In this document: positions 1 to 57,768 of the stretch, in pieces
Position numbering within the stretch: position 1 is the first letter of the stretch
How the letters are laid out: every line of letters starts with the position of its first letter
The notes under the pieces: model-generated
The model's input: only the letters and a program-made list of their open reading frames with translations
Databases searched by the model: none
What the model was told of the DNA's origin: nothing
Translations under genes and position numbers: made by a program
Virus record (IMG/VR): IMGVR_UViG_3300028045_000013
Coordinates: 1-64,000 of that record
Source of the DNA: a virus
DNA length: 64,000 nucleotides
Strand: one strand, 5' to 3'

Positions 1-293
1 ACTCAAAAAAAATCTGTATCAATCCACACAAATTTATCCAAACTGCCAGAAAGCCTCAACATAGCCTATTTAAGCCTTATCCATACTCAAACGATACATT
101 ACCCATCTATGCATGACTTATTGCCTTTAAGGCACCAAAGAATTGGAATTATAATCCACGTACTCACTCCAAACACCTTAAATCAGGCCACAACACGCAA
201 AATGGTTGCATTATCCCGATATATCGATACCTAGGGTAGATGCAACCATTGCACGCCTTAATACGCTAATCTGTAGCAATTATGTATAGACGC
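1..293. other. Noncoding left edge
   Basis: No convincing gene is seen here on either strand. The stretch is C-rich and G-poor on the plus strand, like the minus-strand gene blocks. Its only clear structure is the long imperfect inverted repeat at 201-250. The window starts inside or just beside this stretch, so whatever lies to the left is unknown. Confidence 0.5.
201..250. repeat. Imperfect long inverted repeat (hairpin)
   Basis: AATGGTTGCAT (201-211) is repeated inverted as ATGCAACCATT (240-250). The arms extend inward to 17 positions with 14 matches. The loop is itself palindrome-rich (CGATATATCG, TATCGATA, CCTAGG). No T-run follows on either side, so a classical terminator is less likely than a protein-binding or replication structure. 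Its function is not known. Confidence 0.55.
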
Positions 294-330
294 AAAAAAA
301 CCGATAACTACTTACTAGCTACCGGTTTTT
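294..330 (-). terminator. Rho-independent terminator ending the leftmost minus-strand genes
   Basis: Arms 296-306 (AAAAACCGATA) and 320-330 (TACCGGTTTTT) pair over 11 positions with one mismatch. Read on the minus strand, the hairpin is followed by a run of seven T. It lies 18 bases past the stop of the acidic-protein gene at 348-1127, where leftward transcription should end. Confidence 0.75.
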
Positions 331-347
331 GAAACTACTACTGATTA

Positions 348-1127
348 CTATGTGCGTACAGGCTTAAGATAAGACTTGCTCCCCCGTGTAATAATAACGC
401 CAGTCCCCTCCCTTTGATGTTTAGGTATCGCATTATTAATATCTTGCTTGCATGCCGTCATGTCCAATCGAGTACTAGTGCCTTCTTTTTTGCGTGATCG
501 GAGAAGTTCCTTTGCGAAACTTTGCTTAGTACCTCCTTGCTCTAGTATAGAGTCAATCAGAGCACCGTCGGAACCAACAACGTGACCGTAAGCATTTGTT
601 TGTCTGCCGTTGCCTTTCCCCTTGCCCTTGCCTTTCCCCTTCAATGGCTTTTTTGCAGTTTCTACAGTACCTCCAGTTTCTTCTATCCACAACTCAATCA
701 GAGCGTCGCGGAAGGCCTCTAGATCGTTGTAATAGGCCTTTTTCTTGTTGTATACTAGTTTTAGATTTTCGGAGTCTCTAGTATCACGTAACTCTTTGAT
801 AGTCTCGCAATCATCAAAGGGTGTCGTATCATCCTCTAAATCTTCTTCTTCCTCTAAATCTTCTTCTTCCTCTAAATCTTCTTCAAGATCTTCCTCATCA
901 TCCCCAAAATCGATTTGATCAAGTACTAGTGTAAGCTCACCCTTAATCTCTTCAAGATCCGATTTAGAGGTGATTTTGGGCATATCCTCTAATTCAGGCT
1001 CTGCCGCCAGCAATCCTTTTTTAACGCCTACTAACTGATTTAGTTTTGTAGAGCCGTCAATGATTGTTTCGATGGTATCTTTGTCTTGTGCTTCAACTGC
1101 ATTTTTTACTTGGTCTGATACTTTCAT
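348..1127 (-). CDS. Acidic protein, paralogue of the protein at 47507-48625
   Basis: The protein has 259 residues and no known function. A helical N-terminal part is followed by an almost purely Asp/Glu/Leu segment (about residues 76-100), then a ~45-residue module ('ETIKELRDTRD...AFRDALIEL'), a GKGKGKGKG lysine/glycine linker, and a C-terminal domain with 'AYGHVVGSDGALIDSIL'. The module, the linker and the C-terminal domain align in the same order with the larger acidic protein at 47507-48625, so the two are paralogues. The alternating acidic and basic tracts suggest an abundant nucleic-acid- or protein-associated phage factor, but that is inference. The start has an AAGGACTAAGTAAA leader. 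It is the last gene before the terminator at 294-330. Confidence 0.85.
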   Translation of the reverse strand: MKVSDQVKNAVEAQDKDTIETIIDGSTKLNQLVGVKKGLLAAEPELEDMPKITSKSDLEEIKGELTLVLDQIDFGDDEEDLEEDLEEEEDLEEEEDLEDDTTPFDDCETIKELRDTRDSENLKLVYNKKKAYYNDLEAFRDALIELWIEETGGTVETAKKPLKGKGKGKGKGNGRQTNAYGHVVGSDGALIDSILEQGGTKQSFAKELLRSRKKEGTSTRLDMTACKQDINNAIPKHQREGTGVIITRGSKSYLKPVRT

Positions 1128-2488: not shown

Positions 2489-2541
2489 TTTCAATCTCCA
2501 TAAACACACACACACACAACATAACTTGGCTCTGATAACTA

Positions 2542-2569
2542 TGTATACTCTCAATATCCTACATTGCAA
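2542..2569 (-). promoter_or_regulatory. Putative sigma70 promoter for the leftward cluster
   Basis: On the minus strand TTGCAA (2569-2564) and TATACA (2547-2542) are separated by 16 bases. Transcription would begin near 2535, about 45 bases before the first gene at 2488. The match is moderate. Confidence 0.45.
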
Positions 2570-3273
2570 GCTAATAATACGATCAATCTAGCAATCCACA
2601 CAACGCCCCTACCCTACAACCACAATGGATACAACACCATAATAAACGCACGTACGCGCAAATACAGGATTATCACAACCCTGTCAAACTAATAATTCAA
2701 TATATCCAATCTTTCTCTTATCGATACAAAATCCGAAAAGAACGGAATAGCACCTACAACGTAGGAACTAGAAAAAGTAATAGTATGAGACGTTTCAAAA
2801 AACAAATTGATTGTAGGTACTATACAGTCCGTTTAAACACTATATGGCAATTTCCCTATAAACCCGATTTATTACATATTTATTTGACATCCCTATCACT
2901 ATCCTATATCATCTTTCATCCACTCTTTCACCTCCTTTCTACAAACCCCTCTATAGCATATAGTTACTACATATCACCTATCCTCAAATCTCAACGGCAA
3001 GAATAGATACACAATGGAGGGATATAGTCAAATTAAAAAACAAAATAGTTTCAATCCCCTTACAATAGGATAATAGATTAGGTTATATATCCTACTCTAT
3101 ACTCTACAACCGACAACACTATATATGCATACTCTTTGCATGTATTACATTAAGCCTCCCACTATAAAAAAGTAGAAAGTATAAAAAACCTATTCAAATA
3201 AATATATCCATACTGTAACTAAGTAAGATAACAATATAACTAATACCATTGTACCTATCTCTGTACTGTTGAT
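2570..3273. other. Noncoding region, first part of the 1.4-kb gap
   Basis: No supported gene is seen. One 73-codon plus-strand frame (2785-3006) has no binding site, and its base composition is opposite to that of the plus-strand genes. The plus strand here is strongly C-rich and G-poor. A short inverted repeat, CCTACaacGTAGG, lies near 2751-2765. Confidence 0.5.
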
Positions 3274-3329
3274 TACTGTTGTTGTATCTATCTGTTGATT
3301 GTAATGGTTGTACTGTTGTTGTACCTATC
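3274..3329. repeat. 19-bp direct repeats in the noncoding region
   Basis: The block TACTGTTGTTGTAYCTATC occurs at 3274-3292 and 3311-3329 with one difference. A partial third copy (TTGTACCTATC) lies at 3249-3259. The spacing is 33-37 bases. With the iteron-like array just downstream, these repeats suggest a binding region for a replication or regulatory protein. Confidence 0.55.
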
Positions 3330-3399
3330 ACCACCTTACTTATACAGTAGATATGTATATACGCGCGTATCATTGCCTGTAAGCACTATACAACACTAT

Positions 3400-3539
3400 C
3401 CATAGTACCTGTTCTATCTATCCATATCCATACATTCTACAATTCCATATATCACTGTTCTATGTTTCCATAATCGATACATTCTACAATTCCATAATCG
3501 ATACATTCTATCTATCCATAATCGAGTGTTTTCATACGA
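3400..3539. repeat. Six-unit iteron-like array (22-24 bp units)
   Basis: Six consecutive units begin with CCATA at 3400, 3422, 3445, 3468, 3492 and 3516, a spacing of 22-24 bases or about two helical turns. Units four to six share CCATAATCGA exactly. Units two and four share 'TACATTCTACAATT'. Regularly phased short repeats in an AT-rich noncoding stretch between diverging transcription units are typical of replication origins or multi-site operators. This is an inference; no initiator gene is identified next to it. Confidence 0.6.
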
Positions 3540-4002
3540 CTAATTTATAGAGATTTTATAGTTACTATCACCCTCTATTTGTTCCTAATTATTCCTATAG
3601 TTACTATGATATTCTTTGTAGTTTCTTAATTCTTCTTTTACTTTCTATAGACCTATCAAACCCTCATATTTAGAAATTATAGAATGAGATATCTTTATGC
3701 TTATAGAAACTAGACCTAGGGGTTCTTTTATTGTTGTAGGACTTAGAAAGAAAAGTGTTGAAAGCCCACAAATTTAGTTACCCCCTACTAGTATACACTC
3801 GAATTTTTCCTACATACATTTTCTCCTTCCTCTTCCCTCCCTTCCCATAAATACATAAGCCTCCCTGTTCTCTCACACAGAAAAAGTCCCTATACCTAAA
3901 ATCCTAAAAAATACCAAACCTTTTCCTATATACACGCGAGATTCCTACATTCCCAAACTTCCCTATCTACCCGAACTAATTTCTATATGGTTGATATACT
4001 TT
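3540..4002. other. Noncoding region, second part of the gap
   Basis: No gene is seen. The stretch is AT-rich with short repeated words (for example 'tatagttacta' at about 3555 and 3597) and remains G-poor on the plus strand until about 3960. The composition flips sharply where the plus-strand genes begin. A packaging-recognition site would be expected near the terminase genes but cannot be identified by eye. Confidence 0.45.
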
Positions 4003-4011
4003 TGTTATAAT
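4003..4011 (+). promoter_or_regulatory. Extended -10 promoter for the structural genes
   Basis: The sequence TGTTATAAT matches the extended -10 consensus (TGn then TATAAT) perfectly. No good -35 box lies at the standard distance, as expected for extended -10 promoters. Transcription would start near 4018, about 30 bases before the terminase small-subunit start at 4049. An in-frame ATG at 4010 overlaps this element and is therefore unlikely to be used. Confidence 0.6.
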
Positions 4012-4048
4012 GGTACACCTACCCATAGGAATCACACAGGAGATGAGT

Positions 4049-4639
4049 ATGAGCAAAATGGTAGGTACAAGTGTATCGGAGATCAATTCCGGTAAAAGGA
4101 TGACGTACAGTGATTGGTGCTTCTTTAATGATGAAGGTTTGACGGTACAAGAAATAAAGTTTGCAGATGCATATACAGAGAATCCAGATATGCAAGCAGC
4201 AGCTATAGAAGCTGGGATAGAGGAGCAGAAGGCTAAAGGATGGGCTAAAGCTTTATTGAGGAAACCGCAAGTAAAGAGAAGGATAGAAAACAACCTAGCC
4301 ATAGCACGTAGGTCTAGTGTTATGTCTGTTAGAGAAAGATTGGATCTATTGACCAATATAGGTAGGTCTTCTATTGTGGATTGTATATCTGTAGTAAATG
4401 GTAGATTGGAAATTGATCTAGAGAAAGCGAAAGCTATAGGAAGTGATAGGGGTATATGTAGTATTAAGATTGATGATAAGTCAGATACATTGGGTGGAAG
4501 TAGTAGATCCAGATCGGTGCAGATGACTAGTCCTATCCAAGCTGTGCAGGAGTTGAACAGAATGCAGAAGGTATATGATCAGAAGTTGCAGAATACTGGA
4601 GCTATAGTTCTTATCCCTAGAGAAGATTTGGAGTTGTAA
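4049..4639 (+). CDS. terS: Terminase small subunit
   Basis: This is the DNA-recognition part of the packaging motor. It has 196 residues from ATG 4049, which follows AGGAG with a 6-base gap; the longer start at 4010 lies in the promoter. The N-terminal half carries the helix-turn-helix layout of the Terminase_2 family: 'LTVQEIKFADAYTENPDMQAAAIEAGI' (given here only as a motif span), then a second helix pair with 'LLRKPQVKRRIE'. The C-terminal half resembles the oligomerisation region. The stop overlaps the large-subunit start (TAATG), the usual terS-terL coupling. Assignment is by motif and context and is quite secure. Confidence 0.85.
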   Translation: MSKMVGTSVSEINSGKRMTYSDWCFFNDEGLTVQEIKFADAYTENPDMQAAAIEAGIEEQKAKGWAKALLRKPQVKRRIENNLAIARRSSVMSVRERLDLLTNIGRSSIVDCISVVNGRLEIDLEKAKAIGSDRGICSIKIDDKSDTLGGSSRSRSVQMTSPIQAVQELNRMQKVYDQKLQNTGAIVLIPREDLEL

Positions 4640-17037: not shown

Positions 17038-18564
17038 ATGGCCTTACCGAGAATATTAACAGGGATAATAGCAGAAGCTTCTAAACCTGTAGATGAACGT
17101 GTTCTAGAAGCACTTCTAAGAAAGGAGTCTTCTTATGGCAGTGTTCCTTTTGGTGTAGCTCATGCAACAATAGCATGTGGAAGGAAATTAAAAGTAGAGC
17201 AATACTTCCTACATAGAGATACTACAATATCTGGTTCTACAGGTATAATTTCTCAGGCAGCTGCGAATCTATCAAAAGAGGAACAGGACTTTTTAAAAAA
17301 GAAACTAGATGAAAGAAAGAAGAAGATAGCAGCTCAGAAAAAGAAGGTAGGGTTTAATACACCAGATGGAGTATCAGATGAACTAGACCCCGGAGAGGAT
17401 GTTCCTTCTATATTCGATCAAGGAGGAATTCCTAATAAAGTAACAGCCACTATATTCTTTGTAGATACTGTAGATACTGTAGCACACACTAGACAGTCCT
17501 ATGCTTTTCATAGGGACGCATTCCTATCTAAAGTAAATTCAGGAGGAGCCCACTTACTAAAACTCCCATCTTATAAACCCTTTCCAGCGATAGCAGGAGA
17601 ATGTAATATAACATGGAGAAATACAGCAGGTGGAATTGAGTATGCTGAGGTTACATTTTTTAGAAGTACAAAAAACCCTAATCTACTTACTACAGATACT
17701 GCATCTAAAGCTACAGTAACTGACTTTTATGAAACACTAGCTAAAGATGTAGCAGAGAGTCAACAAGAAATATTAGATGCTGTAGCTAATGATAGTGGAA
17801 CAATACCTAATGATGCTTCTTCTAGTTTTATAGGAAATGTAATTGATAAGATTAGTGAATTTGCAGACAAAGTATCTCAGATCAAATCAGCCATCTTACT
17901 AAAAGCAGGGGCTATCACAGGAACCATAGATGCTGTAATACAAGATGTAGAGAATATAACAAATGCAGTTTCTTCATTAATCCAATTGCCAGCAGATTTG
18001 GTAGGAAGTGTATTAAATAGTTATGCTTCGTTACTAGAGGCTATTGTAAGTCCTGTAGATGCTTTAAGAGATATGATTTCTAAGTTTAGTACTTTCTCTA
18101 GTACATTTGAAGGACTAACACAATCTGCTTTAGAGAGACTTAGATGGGACCAAAAAGATTGGTACTCTACTACTACCTCCCAATTACATATGAATGCTAG
18201 TTTTGGAGGGATGTTACAAGCAGCACAGGAAGTTCCATATGCTTCAGTAGAAGAAGCAGAAGAAGCATTAACCGAACTAGCAGATGCCTATGAAAAACTA
18301 AAGAGAGTTAGTAGTGCCTTTCCAGAATTCTCAGACTCTTTATATGCAGCTTCTAACATGTATGACCAAGCACGTAGGTACATACTAGAACAAGTTGTGT
18401 TTTTACCAGATGTAAGGGAAATTAAGTTTGGTACAGCTAATCCACTTATAGTAACTGCTTATGCTTTATATGGAGACATAGGTAGAGAAGAGGAATTAGC
18501 AACAAGGAATAATATCAAAAATAGATTAATTCCTCCTACAACTTTAGAGGTGTTAACAGAATGA
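17038..18564 (+). CDS. Tail/DNA circularisation protein (Mu gpN-like)
   Basis: The protein has 508 residues. 'KVTATIFFVDTV', 'YAFHRDAFLSKVNSGGAHLL' and 'FPAIAGECNITWRN' match the DNA_circ_N domain of Mu gpN-type baseplate hub proteins. Residues 240-340 are helical. A Lys-rich coiled coil (about 80-105) interrupts the N-terminal domain. The gene order gpN, gpP, gp45, gp46, gp47, gp48 is that of Mu. It overlaps the next gene by 4 bases (ATGA). Confidence 0.85.
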   Translation: MALPRILTGIIAEASKPVDERVLEALLRKESSYGSVPFGVAHATIACGRKLKVEQYFLHRDTTISGSTGIISQAAANLSKEEQDFLKKKLDERKKKIAAQKKKVGFNTPDGVSDELDPGEDVPSIFDQGGIPNKVTATIFFVDTVDTVAHTRQSYAFHRDAFLSKVNSGGAHLLKLPSYKPFPAIAGECNITWRNTAGGIEYAEVTFFRSTKNPNLLTTDTASKATVTDFYETLAKDVAESQQEILDAVANDSGTIPNDASSSFIGNVIDKISEFADKVSQIKSAILLKAGAITGTIDAVIQDVENITNAVSSLIQLPADLVGSVLNSYASLLEAIVSPVDALRDMISKFSTFSSTFEGLTQSALERLRWDQKDWYSTTTSQLHMNASFGGMLQAAQEVPYASVEEAEEALTELADAYEKLKRVSSAFPEFSDSLYAASNMYDQARRYILEQVVFLPDVREIKFGTANPLIVTAYALYGDIGREEELATRNNIKNRLIPPTTLEVLTE

Positions 18565-19544
18565 AACTGGAAGTAGATAATAAAACACTGGAAACATTTC
18601 AAACACTTAGATTTGAAACTAGTATAGCAGCCTTGGTAGATATACTTATATTTACCACTGCTATAATTTCTGAGATTAGAGTCAACGATGAAGTAGTACT
18701 TAGGAGTACAGGAGGTGTTTTATTATTTACTGGGAAAGTGGAGCATGTACAACCAATAGAGAATAAAGCCACCTGGACTTGTAGAAGCACAACTGGAATT
18801 CTTACAACTTCTGCTCCTATTACTGAAACAGGAGAATTCAAACAACTTACTTCTAAAGCACTCATTCAGAGAATTTGTAGTCCTTTTGGAGTTACTGTAG
18901 AAGGTGAAGACGGAATTCAAATCCCAAAGTATAATATAGAACTAGACAGACCTTGTAGTGAAGCCATAGCAGAGATATGTAAGTTTTCAGGACTTATAAC
19001 AACTCCTACACCTGAAGGCAATATAAAACTATTAAGGTATGGACCTGAACTTCCTAAGAAGGATGAGGTAGAACTTTACTTAACAGGTAACAATGCTAGG
19101 TTTGAGTTCGAGTGTGATTCCACAAACCAAGGTTCTTCCTACAATGTACTAGGACAAGGTTCCTTTAATAGTGGGGATCTTACACAATTAGAAGGTCAGC
19201 AGGATGGGACCTATCCATTCACAAAAAGAATGACTAGGATTTCTGATATGCTTTCTTCTAGGTTTACAGTGAGGAAGGAAGTTGAGTGGTTACACAGAGC
19301 TGGAGAAGCTAGTGTAGAATCTTTAAGAGCTTCTATATTCCCAATGACACTAGTAGAGAAAGGGAAATATGTTAATATAGATTCCCAATGGTGTAGGATC
19401 TATGATGGTGTAAGACTCATTGAGAGAGTTTTGTATGTATTAGATAAAAGCGTAACACCAAGTGTAGATACAACAGTCTTAGGATTAGTACTACCTATTA
19501 AATATGGTGGGCCTACAGTACTGACTACAGGATGGTTAAAATGA
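18561..19544 (+). CDS. Baseplate hub protein (Mu gpP-like)
   Basis: The protein has 327 residues. It corresponds to Mu gpP (gp44), related to T4 gp27, which forms the trimeric hub holding the spike. Position, size and features support this: an N-terminal beta domain, then 'LTSKALIQRICSPFGVTV' and 'AIAEICKFSGLI', the two helix-beta units typical of the hub LysM-like parts. It overlaps gpN-like upstream and gp45-like downstream by 4 bases each. Confidence 0.85.
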   Translation: MKLEVDNKTLETFQTLRFETSIAALVDILIFTTAIISEIRVNDEVVLRSTGGVLLFTGKVEHVQPIENKATWTCRSTTGILTTSAPITETGEFKQLTSKALIQRICSPFGVTVEGEDGIQIPKYNIELDRPCSEAIAEICKFSGLITTPTPEGNIKLLRYGPELPKKDEVELYLTGNNARFEFECDSTNQGSSYNVLGQGSFNSGDLTQLEGQQDGTYPFTKRMTRISDMLSSRFTVRKEVEWLHRAGEASVESLRASIFPMTLVEKGKYVNIDSQWCRIYDGVRLIERVLYVLDKSVTPSVDTTVLGLVLPIKYGGPTVLTTGWLK

Positions 19545-36400: not shown

Positions 36401-36517
36401 CTAGCCTAACCAGAGCCTGAACCCTACGAGGAACACGCCCCTCATGTTAATGTTAATCGATAGGTGTTTTTCTATTCCTTCTTTTACTACGTCTGCTAGT
36501 GTTAGTTCAGTACTCAT
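36401..36517 (-). pseudogene. Truncated third copy of the coiled-coil gene
   Basis: Bases 36459-36517 match 36161-36219 at 56 of 59 positions, covering the start codon and the first ~20 codons of the coiled-coil gene (MSTELTLADVVKEGIEKHLS). After that the similarity stops and the frame runs out after 18 unrelated residues. The start overlaps the thyX stop (TAATG). It is a recent partial duplication. Confidence 0.75.
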
Positions 36518-38304
36518 TACTGATCACTCCATATAAGATCGTTAGGTACATGTTCCTGCACTGCGAATCTAAGGGCTTTCCCTAGAGGTGTAAACTTCTC
36601 TCTTTTCCTACTTTTAGTACGTAGAGTAGTATCAGTTCCTATACCAGCAGCTACACAAGAAGATTTAGATGTAGGATGATATGCTGTTATTATAGAATTT
36701 CCATTACATATAGAAGGCTGCATACTCCAATCCTTAAATATATCTTCCGCTTCAAATTTAACTGAATCAAACAACGTAGGGCATTTCTTTACTAACTCCA
36801 TATATAGAGGCTGCATCACTTCTCTCATTTGTGGATGAGCTGTCTTGTCACATCGAAGCATAAACATATGTCTCCAGTCTCTCATGTTTGTAGTAATTAC
36901 AAGTTCAGTCTTTAGAGAATTAGGGAGTACAGATCTAGCTTCTTCAGGTTTCCACCCATCTTTTATTAAACTATCATAGTCTTCTTGAGCACCCAATATA
37001 GACCACATCCAGCGACTTTCTGTAGAAGGTTCAAGGACCGTACTGATTGATTCCACTTTCCAGTTTCCTAGAAACTTATCATCCATCCAACAAGGAAGTA
37101 TAAACTGCATTTCTTTTCCTTGATAATTAACATAGCGAGTTGATTCTTGGGAATTATGTACTACTAAACCATTCGCTACAAAGTTATGAGGCTCCTCTTC
37201 CATCTCTATATCAAATGTTCTGTTTTTACCACATGGTATAATAGATACTATCTCATCACTAAAAACAGAGAGTACACCACTCCCTACATGAAAAGCTTTA
37301 TGACAACTCCTACATAGGAATTTAATATTTTCCTTTTCATTATTAGTCGGGTCCTTATCCATATGGTGGCGTTCTAGATGCTCTTTAGAACCACAACCCC
37401 AACAAATATCAGGGGTATACATTTTATTAGCTCTTAAATATCCTGCCGAGCTGCCTATAGCATCTCCTTTCCATCTGGGGTTCTTTTCTCCCGTCATCCG
37501 TTTACTTATCTCATCACACTCTTTGTATGTTTTCTTTCTACCATAACCCCCCTTTCTATTTTTACGCATTGAAAGTGGTTTGTTAATATTATGTTTACGT
37601 AGAGTTCTTGTAACTATACTAACACAACATCCCATCAACACAGCCATTTCTTTTAAGGTGTTGTTTTCTTCTATATACTTCTTATATAACCATTCTTTAT
37701 TATCATATAAATCTAGACCATTAGCTGTTAATCTATCCCCTGCTTTTAGATTCCCTAGTTTCTGCCACCCTTCATCTGTTAGGAAACGATGTTGTGCTGT
37801 AGCTTTTATAGATCTGCCACTAACACATTTTACTTCTAGTAAATCCTTAACCCCAGAATCTATAATACTTTTAATTTTATTACGTACTAGAATCCCATCT
37901 TTATTTACACTTCTCAGTCTGATTAGTTTTAAACGACCTTTACGTTTAGGGTCATTTTGGTAATCCCAAAGTTGTTTCAGCGTCCATCTTTTTGAGGTCT
38001 TACTTTTTCCACCTTTAAAAGCTGTAACTACAGTATCTTCATCTAGGCAGAAACCACAATGTCTATGTCTTACAAACTCATGGCTAACACCACGATCTAT
38101 AACAAACCTTACAGTTATACTAGCATGTTCCAATGTACTTTCATGTCCATTTTCTATAATAGTACGTATAAGCTTATCTGCTGTTCCAGCGTTGATTTCC
38201 TTCTCTGACTTGTAGCAAGTCCTTATAGCCTTTTCTAAAGCTATAGTAACCTCATCCCAATCTGGTTCATTTACAATTTCATATGATGGTTTAATTAATT
38301 CCAT
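36517..38304 (-). CDS. thyX: ThyX thymidylate synthase interrupted by an HNH intein
   Basis: The frame has 595 codons. Host-protein parts 1-85 and 385-595 (296 residues) form a flavin-dependent thymidylate synthase, which makes dTMP from dUMP. Its RHRX7S signature is split: RHRHCGF (79-85) then SQESTRY (385-391). The intein is 299 residues, from Cys86 (CLDEDTVV) to HN at 383-384, with Ser385 as the next nucleophile. Block B is near 163-175 ('SIKATAQHRFL') and block F near 361-378. A helix-turn-helix-like segment (214-240) and an HNH endonuclease (C301, C304, H313-H314, C331, C334) lie inside. Confidence 0.93.
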   Translation of the reverse strand: MELIKPSYEIVNEPDWDEVTIALEKAIRTCYKSEKEINAGTADKLIRTIIENGHESTLEHASITVRFVIDRGVSHEFVRHRHCGFCLDEDTVVTAFKGGKSKTSKRWTLKQLWDYQNDPKRKGRLKLIRLRSVNKDGILVRNKIKSIIDSGVKDLLEVKCVSGRSIKATAQHRFLTDEGWQKLGNLKAGDRLTANGLDLYDNKEWLYKKYIEENNTLKEMAVLMGCCVSIVTRTLRKHNINKPLSMRKNRKGGYGRKKTYKECDEISKRMTGEKNPRWKGDAIGSSAGYLRANKMYTPDICWGCGSKEHLERHHMDKDPTNNEKENIKFLCRSCHKAFHVGSGVLSVFSDEIVSIIPCGKNRTFDIEMEEEPHNFVANGLVVHNSQESTRYVNYQGKEMQFILPCWMDDKFLGNWKVESISTVLEPSTESRWMWSILGAQEDYDSLIKDGWKPEEARSVLPNSLKTELVITTNMRDWRHMFMLRCDKTAHPQMREVMQPLYMELVKKCPTLFDSVKFEAEDIFKDWSMQPSICNGNSIITAYHPTSKSSCVAAGIGTDTTLRTKSRKREKFTPLGKALRFAVQEHVPNDLIWSDQ

Positions 38305-41993: not shown

Positions 41994-42929
41994 TTATTTC
42001 CTTTTTGTCATCTCCGCTTCATAGAAAGCTAAGGCCATACTATCTATCCCACAAGAGAAAGGTTCATCAAAACAAACCATTATCTTAGGGGCTTTAGATA
42101 CCATATAGTTTCCTTTTAATAAACAAGATCCAAAGTAGCGCATTACTGTTCTTCGTATAGACTCAGGCTCTTCTTTGCAAGCTCTTATTTTAGCAGCTAG
42201 AGTAGTCCAGTCTTGCTTCCCATTTGCTAGGTGTCTACACAAGTCTATTATCTCTGGATTCTCTATCATAGAATCTATACTTTGGATGTGCTTTAGGATC
42301 TCTTCTACTCCATCTGAAGTATCCAATCCTAGCACACTCTCAAGAATTGTCAATGCTTTTCTTGAAGATCCACCAGCCTTAGCTATGATGGCTTCTACAA
42401 CCTCTTCCTCTAACTCTTCCTCTTCCCCCTCAACAACTCTTTCAATTACAGCTGTCATAGATTCACTGTCTAGTAATTCACAGTTAAATACTACACACCT
42501 ATCTTTAATCCCTTTTCTTATGTTTTTAGGATCTGTAGTACATATAACCAAGAAGGTAGTATTGTACTCTTCTTCTAGGGGTTTTAGTAGTAAGTCCTGT
42601 GTAGGTTTAAGAAGTGCATGAAACTCATCCAAGACAACCATTTTATATTCATCCCCTAAAGGACGTACTCCTAAAGAATCTGCAATACCTCTGAAGGACT
42701 CCATTGATCTATCTTTTCCACAATTGATTTCAGTATAGCAATGTTTAATCTCTAGATACTCTCTTATGATTCTAGCGAATGTAGTCTTCCCTGTACCATA
42801 ATCTCCTGTGAACATAAAGACTCTAGGCATAGTATCTACATCTTCAAAGTATTTATCTAGCATAGTCTTAATGTGAGTGTTACCTTCTATATCTTCTAGT
42901 TCCCCCGGTCGATAATCATTGTATAGCAT
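41994..42929 (-). CDS. Clamp loader ATPase (RFC/gp44-like)
   Basis: The protein has 311 residues. AAA+ features: 'YNDYRPGELEDIEGN' N-terminal box, Walker A GDYGTGKT (42-49), Walker B 'MVVLDEFHAL' (Asp101-Glu102), sensor 1 'VICTTDPKNI', the 'KDRCVVF' SRC-like arginine finger segment and sensor 2 'GSSRKALTILE'. It loads the sliding clamp encoded at 46676-47407. Only one loader gene is visible, so it may act as a homomer or use a small subunit not recognised here. Confidence 0.92.
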   Translation of the reverse strand: MLYNDYRPGELEDIEGNTHIKTMLDKYFEDVDTMPRVFMFTGDYGTGKTTFARIIREYLEIKHCYTEINCGKDRSMESFRGIADSLGVRPLGDEYKMVVLDEFHALLKPTQDLLLKPLEEEYNTTFLVICTTDPKNIRKGIKDRCVVFNCELLDSESMTAVIERVVEGEEEELEEEVVEAIIAKAGGSSRKALTILESVLGLDTSDGVEEILKHIQSIDSMIENPEIIDLCRHLANGKQDWTTLAAKIRACKEEPESIRRTVMRYFGSCLLKGNYMVSKAPKIMVCFDEPFSCGIDSMALAFYEAEMTKRK

Positions 42930-43471
42930 GAAAGATCCTCTGTTAAAAATTGAGTGATTGTAATTTGTTCTAATAACTGATTCTGTAGTCTATGTAATGA
43001 AGACAATTTTAGAGAACCATAAGAAGGTGGTTTGATAAAGAGATGATTCACAGAAGCAACACTAAGTACATCTAATAGACAACTTAAAGTGTAACCTCCT
43101 TTAGTTCCTCTTTCACCTTGGATTAGACCCCCTCTTACTAAACTGTCTAAGATTCTCTTTGTAGAGGCTATATGCCTTGATCTAGATGTATTATTTTCAT
43201 GAATATCATGCGCAGTACAAGACACAGACTTCTCATTAAGGAAGTCCAATATCTCTATTGCTTTTATAGTACTTGAAGCTATGTTCATCCTGCTCCTTCT
43301 AATTTCTATTTCAACTAAACTCTTTATTGCATAATGATCAAAAATCACATGCCCTCTTTTCCTTCTCATATAGAAAAGATACTTAATGGGGATTTGACAA
43401 ATAGCCATATTAGTATATCTACCAATCCCCATTTCTGTTTTAGATAGATAATTGTGTTTATTGTTTATCAT
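42896..43471 (-). CDS. Rrf2-like winged-helix protein
   Basis: The protein has 191 residues. Between about residues 45 and 145 it has the Rrf2 pattern: 'YAIKSLVEIEI', 'KAIEILDFLNEK', 'TKRILDSLVRGGLIQGER' and 'GTKGGYTLSCLLDVLSVASV'. The three cysteines that hold the Fe-S cluster in IscR-type members are not present in order. The start is uncertain (no good binding site). A phage-encoded regulator of host or own transcription is possible. It overlaps the clamp loader gene by 34 bases. Confidence 0.6.
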   Translation of the reverse strand: MINNKHNYLSKTEMGIGRYTNMAICQIPIKYLFYMRRKRGHVIFDHYAIKSLVEIEIRRSRMNIASSTIKAIEILDFLNEKSVSCTAHDIHENNTSRSRHIASTKRILDSLVRGGLIQGERGTKGGYTLSCLLDVLSVASVNHLFIKPPSYGSLKLSSLHRLQNQLLEQITITQFLTEDLSCYTMIIDRGN

Positions 43472-47506: not shown

Positions 47507-48625
47507 TTATACGAGTTTTGCTTCACGACATTTCAATTTGCCGTTCTTCATTTTCTTAATCTCAAGACCCTTCTTCTCTAGGTTCTTAATATGCATTGTT
47601 AGTGCAGAACTCCTAGAAGATTCAGACTTGATATCTTTTCCATTATCTTCCTGCCATTCACCAATAGCATCGATGATGTCAGATTTCATAGAACCTTTAA
47701 AGATAAGATCATCCATCAGTGCTGCTTGACTTCCTGCTGTATGACCATAACGGCTCTTCTTACCTGCTTTCTTAGTAGGTTTAGTTACTACCTCTTTAGC
47801 TTTTTTAGCTGAGGATTTAGCTTTACCTTTTTTAGGAGCAGGTTTTTCATCTTCTACATCTTCAGAAGCTACTTCATAGATAGCTTGTCGGAATGCATCG
47901 ATGTCCTTAAAATAAGGCTGCTTCTTATTATACTTCAGACCTTTGAGTTCGTTCTCATCTCTATAGTCTTTCAGTTCTTGAATAGTAGAGAGTTCATCTA
48001 ACTCATCTTGCAGAGGATCACTGTCGTCATCATCTTCTTCTACATCTTCTAGATCATCCTCGTCATCCTCATCTTCTAGATCATCCTCGTCATCTTCATC
48101 TTCTAGATCATCCTCATCTTCTTCTACTACCTTCTTAGCTTTCTTTTTCTTGGATGCAGCTTTCTTCTTAGAAGGTTTAGGGGCTTCCTCTTCTTCCTCA
48201 TCTTCATCCCCGTCTTCATCCTCATCTAATTCGTCTTCATCCTCATCTTCTTCTACTTCTACCTTCTTGGCTTTCTTCCCTTTCCCTTTTCCTTTACCTT
48301 TCTTAGGTTTAGGAGCTTCTTCTTCTTCCTCTTCCTCTTCAGGTTGTGTAAACCCTAGAACTTCTAGCACTTCCCATGTATTAGTGTGAAGACCAAGATC
48401 TACATCTTCCTCAATAATCTCTTGTTCTACCATAGCAGCTTTCTTCAGTGCTTTCTTCAGTGCAGGGAAAGGAAGATCTACATCAATCTCACAATCCAAC
48501 ACTTCATTAAGATCTACAGCAGCTGCAATCATATGCAGGTGTTTAGCAGGTACTTTCTTTTTAGAAGCTTTACTGTCATTACTTTTCTTACTACTAGTCT
48601 TTTTACTATTTTTCTTCAGTGCCAT
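47507..48625 (-). CDS. Large acidic protein with alternating Asp/Glu and Lys tracts
   Basis: The protein has 372 residues. A basic start (NSKKTSSKKSNDSKASKKK), a helical domain (25-90), then acidic tracts alternate with GKGKGKGKKAKK and KKKAASKKKKAKK runs (about 95-210). 'DDEDDLEDE'-type repeats follow. Residues 215-255 form a HeH/SAP-like module ('ELSTIQELKDYRD...AFRQAIYEVA'). A C-terminal domain (290-372) has 'RYGHTAGSQAALMDDLI'. It is a paralogue of 348-1127. AAAGGAGAAAAGGAC leader; own terminator downstream. It is probably abundant and nucleic-acid associated (inference). Confidence 0.8.
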   Translation of the reverse strand: MALKKNSKKTSSKKSNDSKASKKKVPAKHLHMIAAAVDLNEVLDCEIDVDLPFPALKKALKKAAMVEQEIIEEDVDLGLHTNTWEVLEVLGFTQPEEEEEEEEAPKPKKGKGKGKGKKAKKVEVEEDEDEDELDEDEDGDEDEEEEEAPKPSKKKAASKKKKAKKVVEEDEDDLEDEDDEDDLEDEDDEDDLEDVEEDDDDSDPLQDELDELSTIQELKDYRDENELKGLKYNKKQPYFKDIDAFRQAIYEVASEDVEDEKPAPKKGKAKSSAKKAKEVVTKPTKKAGKKSRYGHTAGSQAALMDDLIFKGSMKSDIIDAIGEWQEDNGKDIKSESSRSSALTMHIKNLEKKGLEIKKMKNGKLKCREAKLV

Positions 48626-56406: not shown

Positions 56407-56765
56407 AAATCAAAGTCTCCACTCTCTACTTTCCCTTCTATTTCCATGACCTTCTTGGCATATTTCTCTAATGTTTTTTTATAGTCTATATAATTCTCAT
56501 CATCATCATCTGAGTCAGTTTCTATGAATTCTATACATTCACTATTTACACATTCGTGTATATGATCTTCAAAAGCTTCTCTTAAAGCCTCTTCTTTAGT
56601 TTGAGGGAATGTTTCTTTTAGGTTTTCTAGTAGACCTACCATTTCATTTTTAAAGACTACATTCTTGTGCCCTTTAGATAAAGATCTATTTATTCTATCA
56701 AGTAGGAACTCTATTTCATCTTTGGTACATTGTTTCTCTAGTGTTACTGTTCTTTTATTTTTCAT
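56403..56765 (-). CDS. Hypothetical protein, paralogue of the pentapeptide protein's C-terminal domain
   Basis: The protein has 120 residues from ATG 56765 (AGGAA at 7 bases). 'QCTKDEIEFLLDRI', 'LLENLKETFPQTKEEALREA' and an acidic stretch match in order 'TCTKKEIEYLLKQM', 'IEQLKCLKARFPDTKEDRLDKV' of the neighbouring pentapeptide-repeat protein. So the free domain and the fused domain are neighbours in one operon. The function is unknown. Confidence 0.7.
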   Translation of the reverse strand: MKNKRTVTLEKQCTKDEIEFLLDRINRSLSKGHKNVVFKNEMVGLLENLKETFPQTKEEALREAFEDHIHECVNSECIEFIETDSDDDDENYIDYKKTLEKYAKKVMEIEGKVESGDFDL

Positions 56766-57768
56766 TACTAAATTCCTTTTCAATTTGATTAACTGTCTTT
56801 ACATACTCTTCTAAAATTTCCTGATAGTCTTGTTTATCTGAATTATCCATAACCAGCTCTCCTTCAAATTCATCTTCAAGTACCTCCAAATGCTCTTTAA
56901 AAACTTTATCTAGTCTATCCTCTTTAGTATCAGGGAATCGAGCTTTAAGACACTTAAGTTGCTCTATCATACTTTCTACAAACCTAGCATTTGGGGAAGC
57001 TTTTTTATAGACCATCCCTTCCATTTGTTTTAGTAAATACTCTATTTCTTTTTTAGTGCATGTTCTTGAAAATCTTACTGTAGGTTCTTCTGTACTAGTG
57101 ACTGTACTCATAGCTTCTAAATCAGTTCCTCTTAAATTAGCTCCTTCTAAATTAGCATCTTTTAAATCAGTTCCTTCTAAATCAGTTCCTTCTAAATTAG
57201 CACCTCTTAAATAAGCACCTCTTAAATTAGCTCCTTCTAAATTAGCATCTTTTAAATCAGTTCCTTCTAAATCAGTTCCTTCTAAATTAGCACCTCTTAA
57301 ATAAGCACCTCTTAAATTAGCTCCTTTTAAATAAGCAAATGTTAAATTAGCATCTTCTAAATTAGTGCCTAGTAAATTAGCACCTCTTAAATAAGCACCT
57401 CTTAAATTAGCTCCTTTTAAATAAGCAAATGTTAAATTAGCTCCTTCTAAATTAGTATCTTCTAAATTAGTATCTTTTAAATTAGCACCTTTTAAATTAA
57501 CTCCTTTTAAATCAGCATTTTCTAAATTAGTGCCTAGTAGATTAGCATTTTCTAAATTAGCATCTTTTAATTTAGCATTTTCTAAATTAGCATCTTTTAA
57601 ATTAGCAAATGGTAAATTAGCACCTTCTAAATAAGCTCCTCTTAAATTAGCACCTCTTAAATAAGCAAATGGTAATTTAGATCCTTCTAAATTAGCATCT
57701 TTTAATTTAGCAACTATTACTTCATGTAGTAGCTTCCCTGACTTACTATATATTTTTACTGTTTTCAT
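56755..57768 (-). CDS. Pentapeptide-repeat protein fused to a helical domain
   Basis: The protein has 337 residues. Residues 20-220 are nearly perfect A(N/D)LxG-type pentapeptides (more than 35), expected to fold into a right-handed square beta-helix. Such folds can mimic DNA (as in Qnr/MfpA gyrase protection), but many have other roles. Residues 230-337 form a domain homologous to the next gene's product. The repeat DNA holds perfect 90-base tandem copies. The gene starts on the SNF2 stop (TAATG). Confidence 0.9.
   Translation of the reverse strand: MKTVKIYSKSGKLLHEVIVAKLKDANLEGSKLPFAYLRGANLRGAYLEGANLPFANLKDANLENAKLKDANLENANLLGTNLENADLKGVNLKGANLKDTNLEDTNLEGANLTFAYLKGANLRGAYLRGANLLGTNLEDANLTFAYLKGANLRGAYLRGANLEGTDLEGTDLKDANLEGANLRGAYLRGANLEGTDLEGTDLKDANLEGANLRGTDLEAMSTVTSTEEPTVRFSRTCTKKEIEYLLKQMEGMVYKKASPNARFVESMIEQLKCLKARFPDTKEDRLDKVFKEHLEVLEDEFEGELVMDNSDKQDYQEILEEYVKTVNQIEKEFSNEK
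57128..57307 (-). repeat. Perfect 90-bp tandem repeat in the pentapeptide gene
   Basis: Bases 57128-57217 and 57218-57307 are identical over 90 bases, encoding six pentapeptides each (30 residues). A third partial copy continues for about 19 bases. A second 90-base periodicity links 57289-57350 with 57379-57440. Perfect identity implies recent expansion by slippage or unequal exchange, without frameshift. Confidence 0.85.

Follow-up and report, generated by a model that had tools for sequence, protein, structure and literature searches.

What does a short tandem array do in the largest gene-free stretch of an uncultivated phage genome of about 65 kb? We analysed 64 kb (the window) of a 65,262-bp viral record. 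A first-pass annotation had described six repeats beginning with CCATA, spaced 22–24 bases apart in a gap between diverging transcription units, and had read them as an origin or a multi-site operator. Coordinates of the array, its surroundings and one candidate binding protein are listed in Table 1.

Table 1. Features of the array region and a candidate array binder (window coordinates)
Feature	Position	Strand	Remarks
Gene with C-terminal winged-helix-like domain, candidate array binder	348–1127	-	Paralogue of 47507–48625; low-confidence model
First gene of left-hand block, 90 aa, unknown	2216–2488	-
Gap A, between divergent transcription blocks	2489–4048	.	About 1.56 kb; GC 33.5%; GC skew -0.39
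Half unit, TCCATA half-site alone (T at 3399)	3400–3411	+	Without the TTCTA half
Unit 1, TTCTATCTATCCATATCCATACA	3412–3434	+	23 bp
Unit 2, TTCTACAATTCCATATATCACTG	3435–3457	+	23 bp
Unit 3, TTCTATGTTTCCATAATCGATACA	3458–3481	+	24 bp
Unit 4, TTCTACAATTCCATAATCGATACA	3482–3505	+	24 bp
Unit 5, TTCTATCTATCCATAATCGAGTGT	3506–3529	+	24 bp; closest to the AT-rich flank
AT-rich flank, candidate DNA unwinding element	3541–3690	.	Third-lowest 150-bp helix stability genome-wide, z -3.2
TATAGTTACTAT copy 1, with perfect dyad ATAGT-T-ACTAT	3557–3568	.
TATAGTTACTAT copy 2	3596–3607	.	39 bp from copy 1
Extended -10 promoter-like TGTTATAAT for the terS block	4003–4011	+	Array about 480 bp upstream
terS, small terminase subunit, first gene of right-hand block	4049–4639	+	PF03592 Terminase_2, phrog_51

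A gap between divergent blocks

The gap between diverging units is real and somewhat longer than the 1.4 kb first given for it, and the genome outside it is compact, as the annotation had said. Nearly all genes are oriented away from gap A. On its right are the plus-strand structural genes, in the order terS, TerL, portal, protease and capsid; on its left are small unknown genes on the minus strand, plus replication genes. The ends of the record carry a 126-bp exact direct repeat (window positions 5–130 and the last 126 bases), so the genome probably closes into a circle of about 65,136 bp. At the left end a one-A difference shifts this repeat by four bases, and an exact end-to-end repeat was not found. 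Elsewhere in the window, gene 56755–57768 contains a long 15-bp-period repeat (57128–57711) that encodes pentapeptide-like repeats, and, on visual reading, a 595-aa frame (36517–38304) resembles a thymidylate synthase of the ThyX type split by an intein-like insertion that carries HNH-like motifs.

Cumulative GC skew had been suggested as a check on the origin reading. Computed on the closed circle, it has its minimum at about 4.04 kb (4039) and its maximum at about 29.9 kb, both exactly at gene-orientation switches. The minimum gives little support to an origin. The skew is mostly a coding property, because it is near zero at fourfold-degenerate sites (just 0.03–0.07), and its signal comes mainly from codon position 1. 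We therefore rejected GC skew as origin evidence; a second gene-free stretch, gap B (see below), has no consistent skew. Gap A itself has a strong excess of C over G on the plus strand, as leftward genes do, and no evident gene. Leftward transcription through the gap is one possible source of this bias.

Repeat units and their core

The six CCATA starts were found where the annotation had placed them (3400, 3422, 3445, 3468, 3492 and 3516; spacings 22, 23, 23, 24 and 24), with an additional CCATA copy at 3428. The three units it had reported as identical do share CCATAATCGA exactly, at 3468, 3492 and 3516; these are the units closest to the AT-rich side. The six-unit description needs refinement. 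What recurs is a two-part core, TTCTA-N4-TCCATA, present in five full copies (starts 3412, 3435, 3458, 3482 and 3506; spacings 23, 23, 24 and 24) and one half copy.

Chance does not readily produce such an array. None of 300 dinucleotide shuffles of the gap gave a chain of six identical 5-mers at 22–24-bp spacing; the longest chain in the shuffles was 3 at this spacing and 4 at any spacing. At a lag of 24 the autocorrelation score reached 29, whereas no shuffle exceeded 12. No other phased repeat outside genes is as strong anywhere in the genome; all higher scorers are coding, with periods divisible by 3. A coding repeat was ruled out for the array because its spacing (22/23/23/24/24) breaks frame. 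An RNA element was also rejected: Rfam gave no match, and the array with its flank folds no better than shuffles.

Eleven core positions are invariant in all copies. Pairwise identity is 110/110 within the core and 51/122 (42%) outside it. The core columns form two runs (p about 6e-4), in blocks about one helical turn apart. To judge from the alignment of the units, an invariant core in a diverged remainder is the pattern expected for protein-binding sites and not for drifting duplicates. None of the units is a palindrome, and none is in coding DNA. Their spacing corresponds to 2.2–2.3 helical turns, so they are not strictly in phase.

Could the array be a neutral minisatellite, a functionless tandem duplication in unused DNA? 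The units are arranged head to tail, and the same N4 spacer is found in units 2 and 4, and again in units 1 and 5, as duplications would give. However, the units are too diverged outside the core for recent duplication, the contrast between 100% and 42% identity follows two blocks one helical turn apart, and the genome is otherwise compact. We consider a minisatellite very unlikely.

An unstable flank, and the operator and packaging readings

An AT-rich flank of low helix stability adjoins the array on its right side. It contains two copies of TATAGTTACTAT, and the dyad within this 12-mer occurs in the genome only in these two copies. Of 2000 shuffles of the flank, 24 produced an exact 12-mer repeat.

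A pair of dyads beside tandem sites, between divergent blocks, could belong to a multi-site operator or enhancer. A phage regulator would bind the array, and perhaps also the ATAGTTACTAT dyads, and switch the divergent early and late blocks. The pair of perfect dyads is unique in the genome, and a perfect-dyad pair of any sequence appeared in 21 of 1000 gap shuffles. The gap also contains promoter-like sites at 2884–2912 and 4003–4011, and the coding-like strand bias of this non-coding DNA hints at possible leftward transcription. However, the strongest promoter-like sites lie about 480 bp off to the left and right, probably beyond the reach of a classical operator, and five or more tandem sites at 23–24 bp, as here, are unusual for a repressor. 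Scans of the AT-rich region found fewer promoter sites than in shuffles, using a sigma70-like consensus only, which may not fit host or phage promoters. On balance an operator seems unlikely.

The main rival to an origin is a packaging site of the pac or cosB type, where TerS oligomers bind repeats upstream of their own gene and start packaging. The array is indeed upstream of terS, and the only PDB match of the PF03592 product is the SF6 small terminase, at weak significance (E 0.046); PDB entry 3zqq is SF6 gp1 (PMC6316719). Lambda cosB and SPP1 pac similarly have repeated (lambda) or paired (SPP1) terminase-binding sites near terS (PMC4856287; PMC6316719). The distance differs. A pac or cosB site would overlap or directly abut terS or the cleavage site, whereas the array stops about 510 bp short of the start of terS; in SPP1, pac overlaps the promoter, ribosome-binding site and coding start of terS (PMC6316719). 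The TerS sites of SPP1, pacL and pacR, have no sequence identity to each other (PMC4856287), unlike the units of the array. A terminase site also gives no obvious reason for a low-stability neighbour with repeated 12-mers. We regard a packaging site as improbable, on a par with an operator.

Relatives, replication proteins and the origin reading

The annotation had named conservation in related phages as a check: the array sequence was not found in relatives, and position alone is kept, in one of them. The core occurs five times here and once each in 6 other loci among 334 fetched loci. The exact array pattern was absent from the viral contigs searched, searches with a triple-TCCATA pattern returned mostly 24-bp repeats without the core, a search for DNA matches to the phage gave nothing meaningful, and scans of genome contigs found distant TerL homologues only. 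Relatives with TerL at about 40% identity (L008–L087) mostly have no gap like this one, nor do they have the polymerase in common with the phage. Relatives with TerS at 62–64% (L335–L337) are short contigs, each of which breaks off before reaching the array position. In two of them, L335 and L337 (TerS 62–64%, TerL 71–73% identical to the phage), an extra segment of about 0.85–1.0 kb lies between terS and the TerL gene (990–1831 and 864–1905, respectively).

No close relative that has the gap was found. Among long records, G050 alone has homologues of TerL (43%) as well as of the polymerase (45%). Its gene blocks diverge in the same way, from a 1.9-kb gap that precedes the gene in the terS position. 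In this gap is an array of different sequence with a 27-bp period (score 24, shuffle maximum 13), and the genome-wide stability minimum of G050 (35307) falls on it. The G050 array is at the same place as ours, and the TerS there is different-looking, a pairing that counts towards the packaging reading. Part of the G050 array coincides with an open frame of 86 codons that has no evident ribosome-binding site, so its 27-bp period could conceivably have a coding explanation. A further genome, G063, has an array beside its stability minimum, between the genes for primase and helicase; another, G054, has a comparable gap with no array in it. As far as these comparisons go, place and architecture appear to recur in some relatives and the sequence does not.

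The phage encodes most of a replisome, which counts in favour of an origin. Its replication block includes an SNF2-like helicase, a primase, a DnaB-like helicase, a clamp loader and a RecA-like protein, with PolA exonuclease and polymerase as separate genes. The phage belongs to an uncultivated group, with many records of 60–75 kb, whose members have in common an SNF2 helicase, primase, DnaB-like helicase, split PolA, clamp loader and usually RecA.

The annotation saw no initiator protein beside the array, and this agrees with our searches: no phage protein tested matched a known initiator family. An origin need not adjoin its initiator gene, as SPP1 oriR shows (PMC6316719). Candidate binding proteins, all from low-confidence models, are the winged-helix-like products of 348–1127 and 47507–48625 and an Rrf2-like protein (42896–43471). 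The first two are paralogues with acidic and lysine-rich linkers as well as a winged-helix-like domain at the C terminus, and the product of 348–1127 may be an array-binding protein. Structure models of two candidate binding proteins had mean pLDDT of 52 and 32, too poor for a fold search. G050 encodes a protein similar to these paralogues (18184–18897) after its helicase gene.

We favour a replication origin because direct repeats with a conserved core, next to a low-stability stretch that carries short AT-rich repeats, are the architecture of SPP1, lambdoid and iteron-plasmid origins. In Bacillus phage SPP1, oriL and oriR consist of direct repeats and an AT-rich DNA unwinding element (PMC6316719). 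SPP1 is also comparable as a lytic phage with a DnaB-type helicase, and its oriR lies outside the initiator gene (PMC6316719); the likeness is one of layout. SPP1 differs in having a known initiator, gp38, and in using the host DnaG primase, whereas this phage encodes a primase of its own along with PolA and a clamp loader, and our searches turned up no known initiator. Origins of lambda and Stx phages have 4 or 6 iterons with an AT-rich region on one side (PMC7466680). In lambda the iterons lie within gene O and form imperfect inverted repeats, unlike the non-palindromic, non-coding units here. Iteron plasmid origins (RK2, P1, F) have mostly non-palindromic direct repeats and an AT-rich region, RK2 with 13-mer repeats, and helical phasing of plasmid iterons is general but not absolute (PMC5043065). 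In contrast to these plasmids, our array has no adjacent rep gene, its phasing is not strict, and gap A has no DnaA box within one mismatch.

The likeliest reading, with a probability of roughly 45%, is that the array supplies the iterons of a theta-type origin. A DNA-binding initiator of the phage would then occupy the five TTCTA-N4-TCCATA sites in multiple copies. The resulting complex would strain and open the neighbouring stretch at 3541–3690, where the phage-encoded DnaB-like helicase, primase and polymerase (replication block at about 39–59 kb of the record) would load. The anatomy fits the pair of alternatives first proposed, origin or operator, and the balance tips to an origin because of the low-stability flank with its repeated 12-mer and the positional analogue in the closest long relative; the lack of sequence conservation tells against it. 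Our confidence stays below even because helical phasing is imperfect, an initiator was not identified and gap B competes. The arrayless gap of G054 is a further point against. An origin-like way of working is better supported than identity as the actual origin.

Gap B is a gene-free stretch of about 1.05 kb, made up of window positions 1–347 and record positions 64433–65136, the latter outside the window. It has four CCTACTCAAAAAAA-type repeats (spacing 51, 31 and 31 bp) and a perfect 14-bp palindrome, CTCATGCGCATGAG. The repeats adjoin the least stable 150-bp segment of the genome (64822; z -5.4). Gap B is a competing origin candidate and holds the genome's true stability minimum. The phage may conceivably have a two-module replicator, with two unrelated arrays each beside an exceptionally unstable AT-rich stretch (3400–3690, and gap B over the contig junction). 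It would use an initiator of an undescribed family, with iterons swapped fast between related phages and their place kept. We hold this version to be rather improbable.

To our knowledge, no origin has been mapped in this uncultivated phage group. With a concrete candidate of 300 bp, and an analogue at the matching position in a relative, both the origin and its initiator become directly testable.
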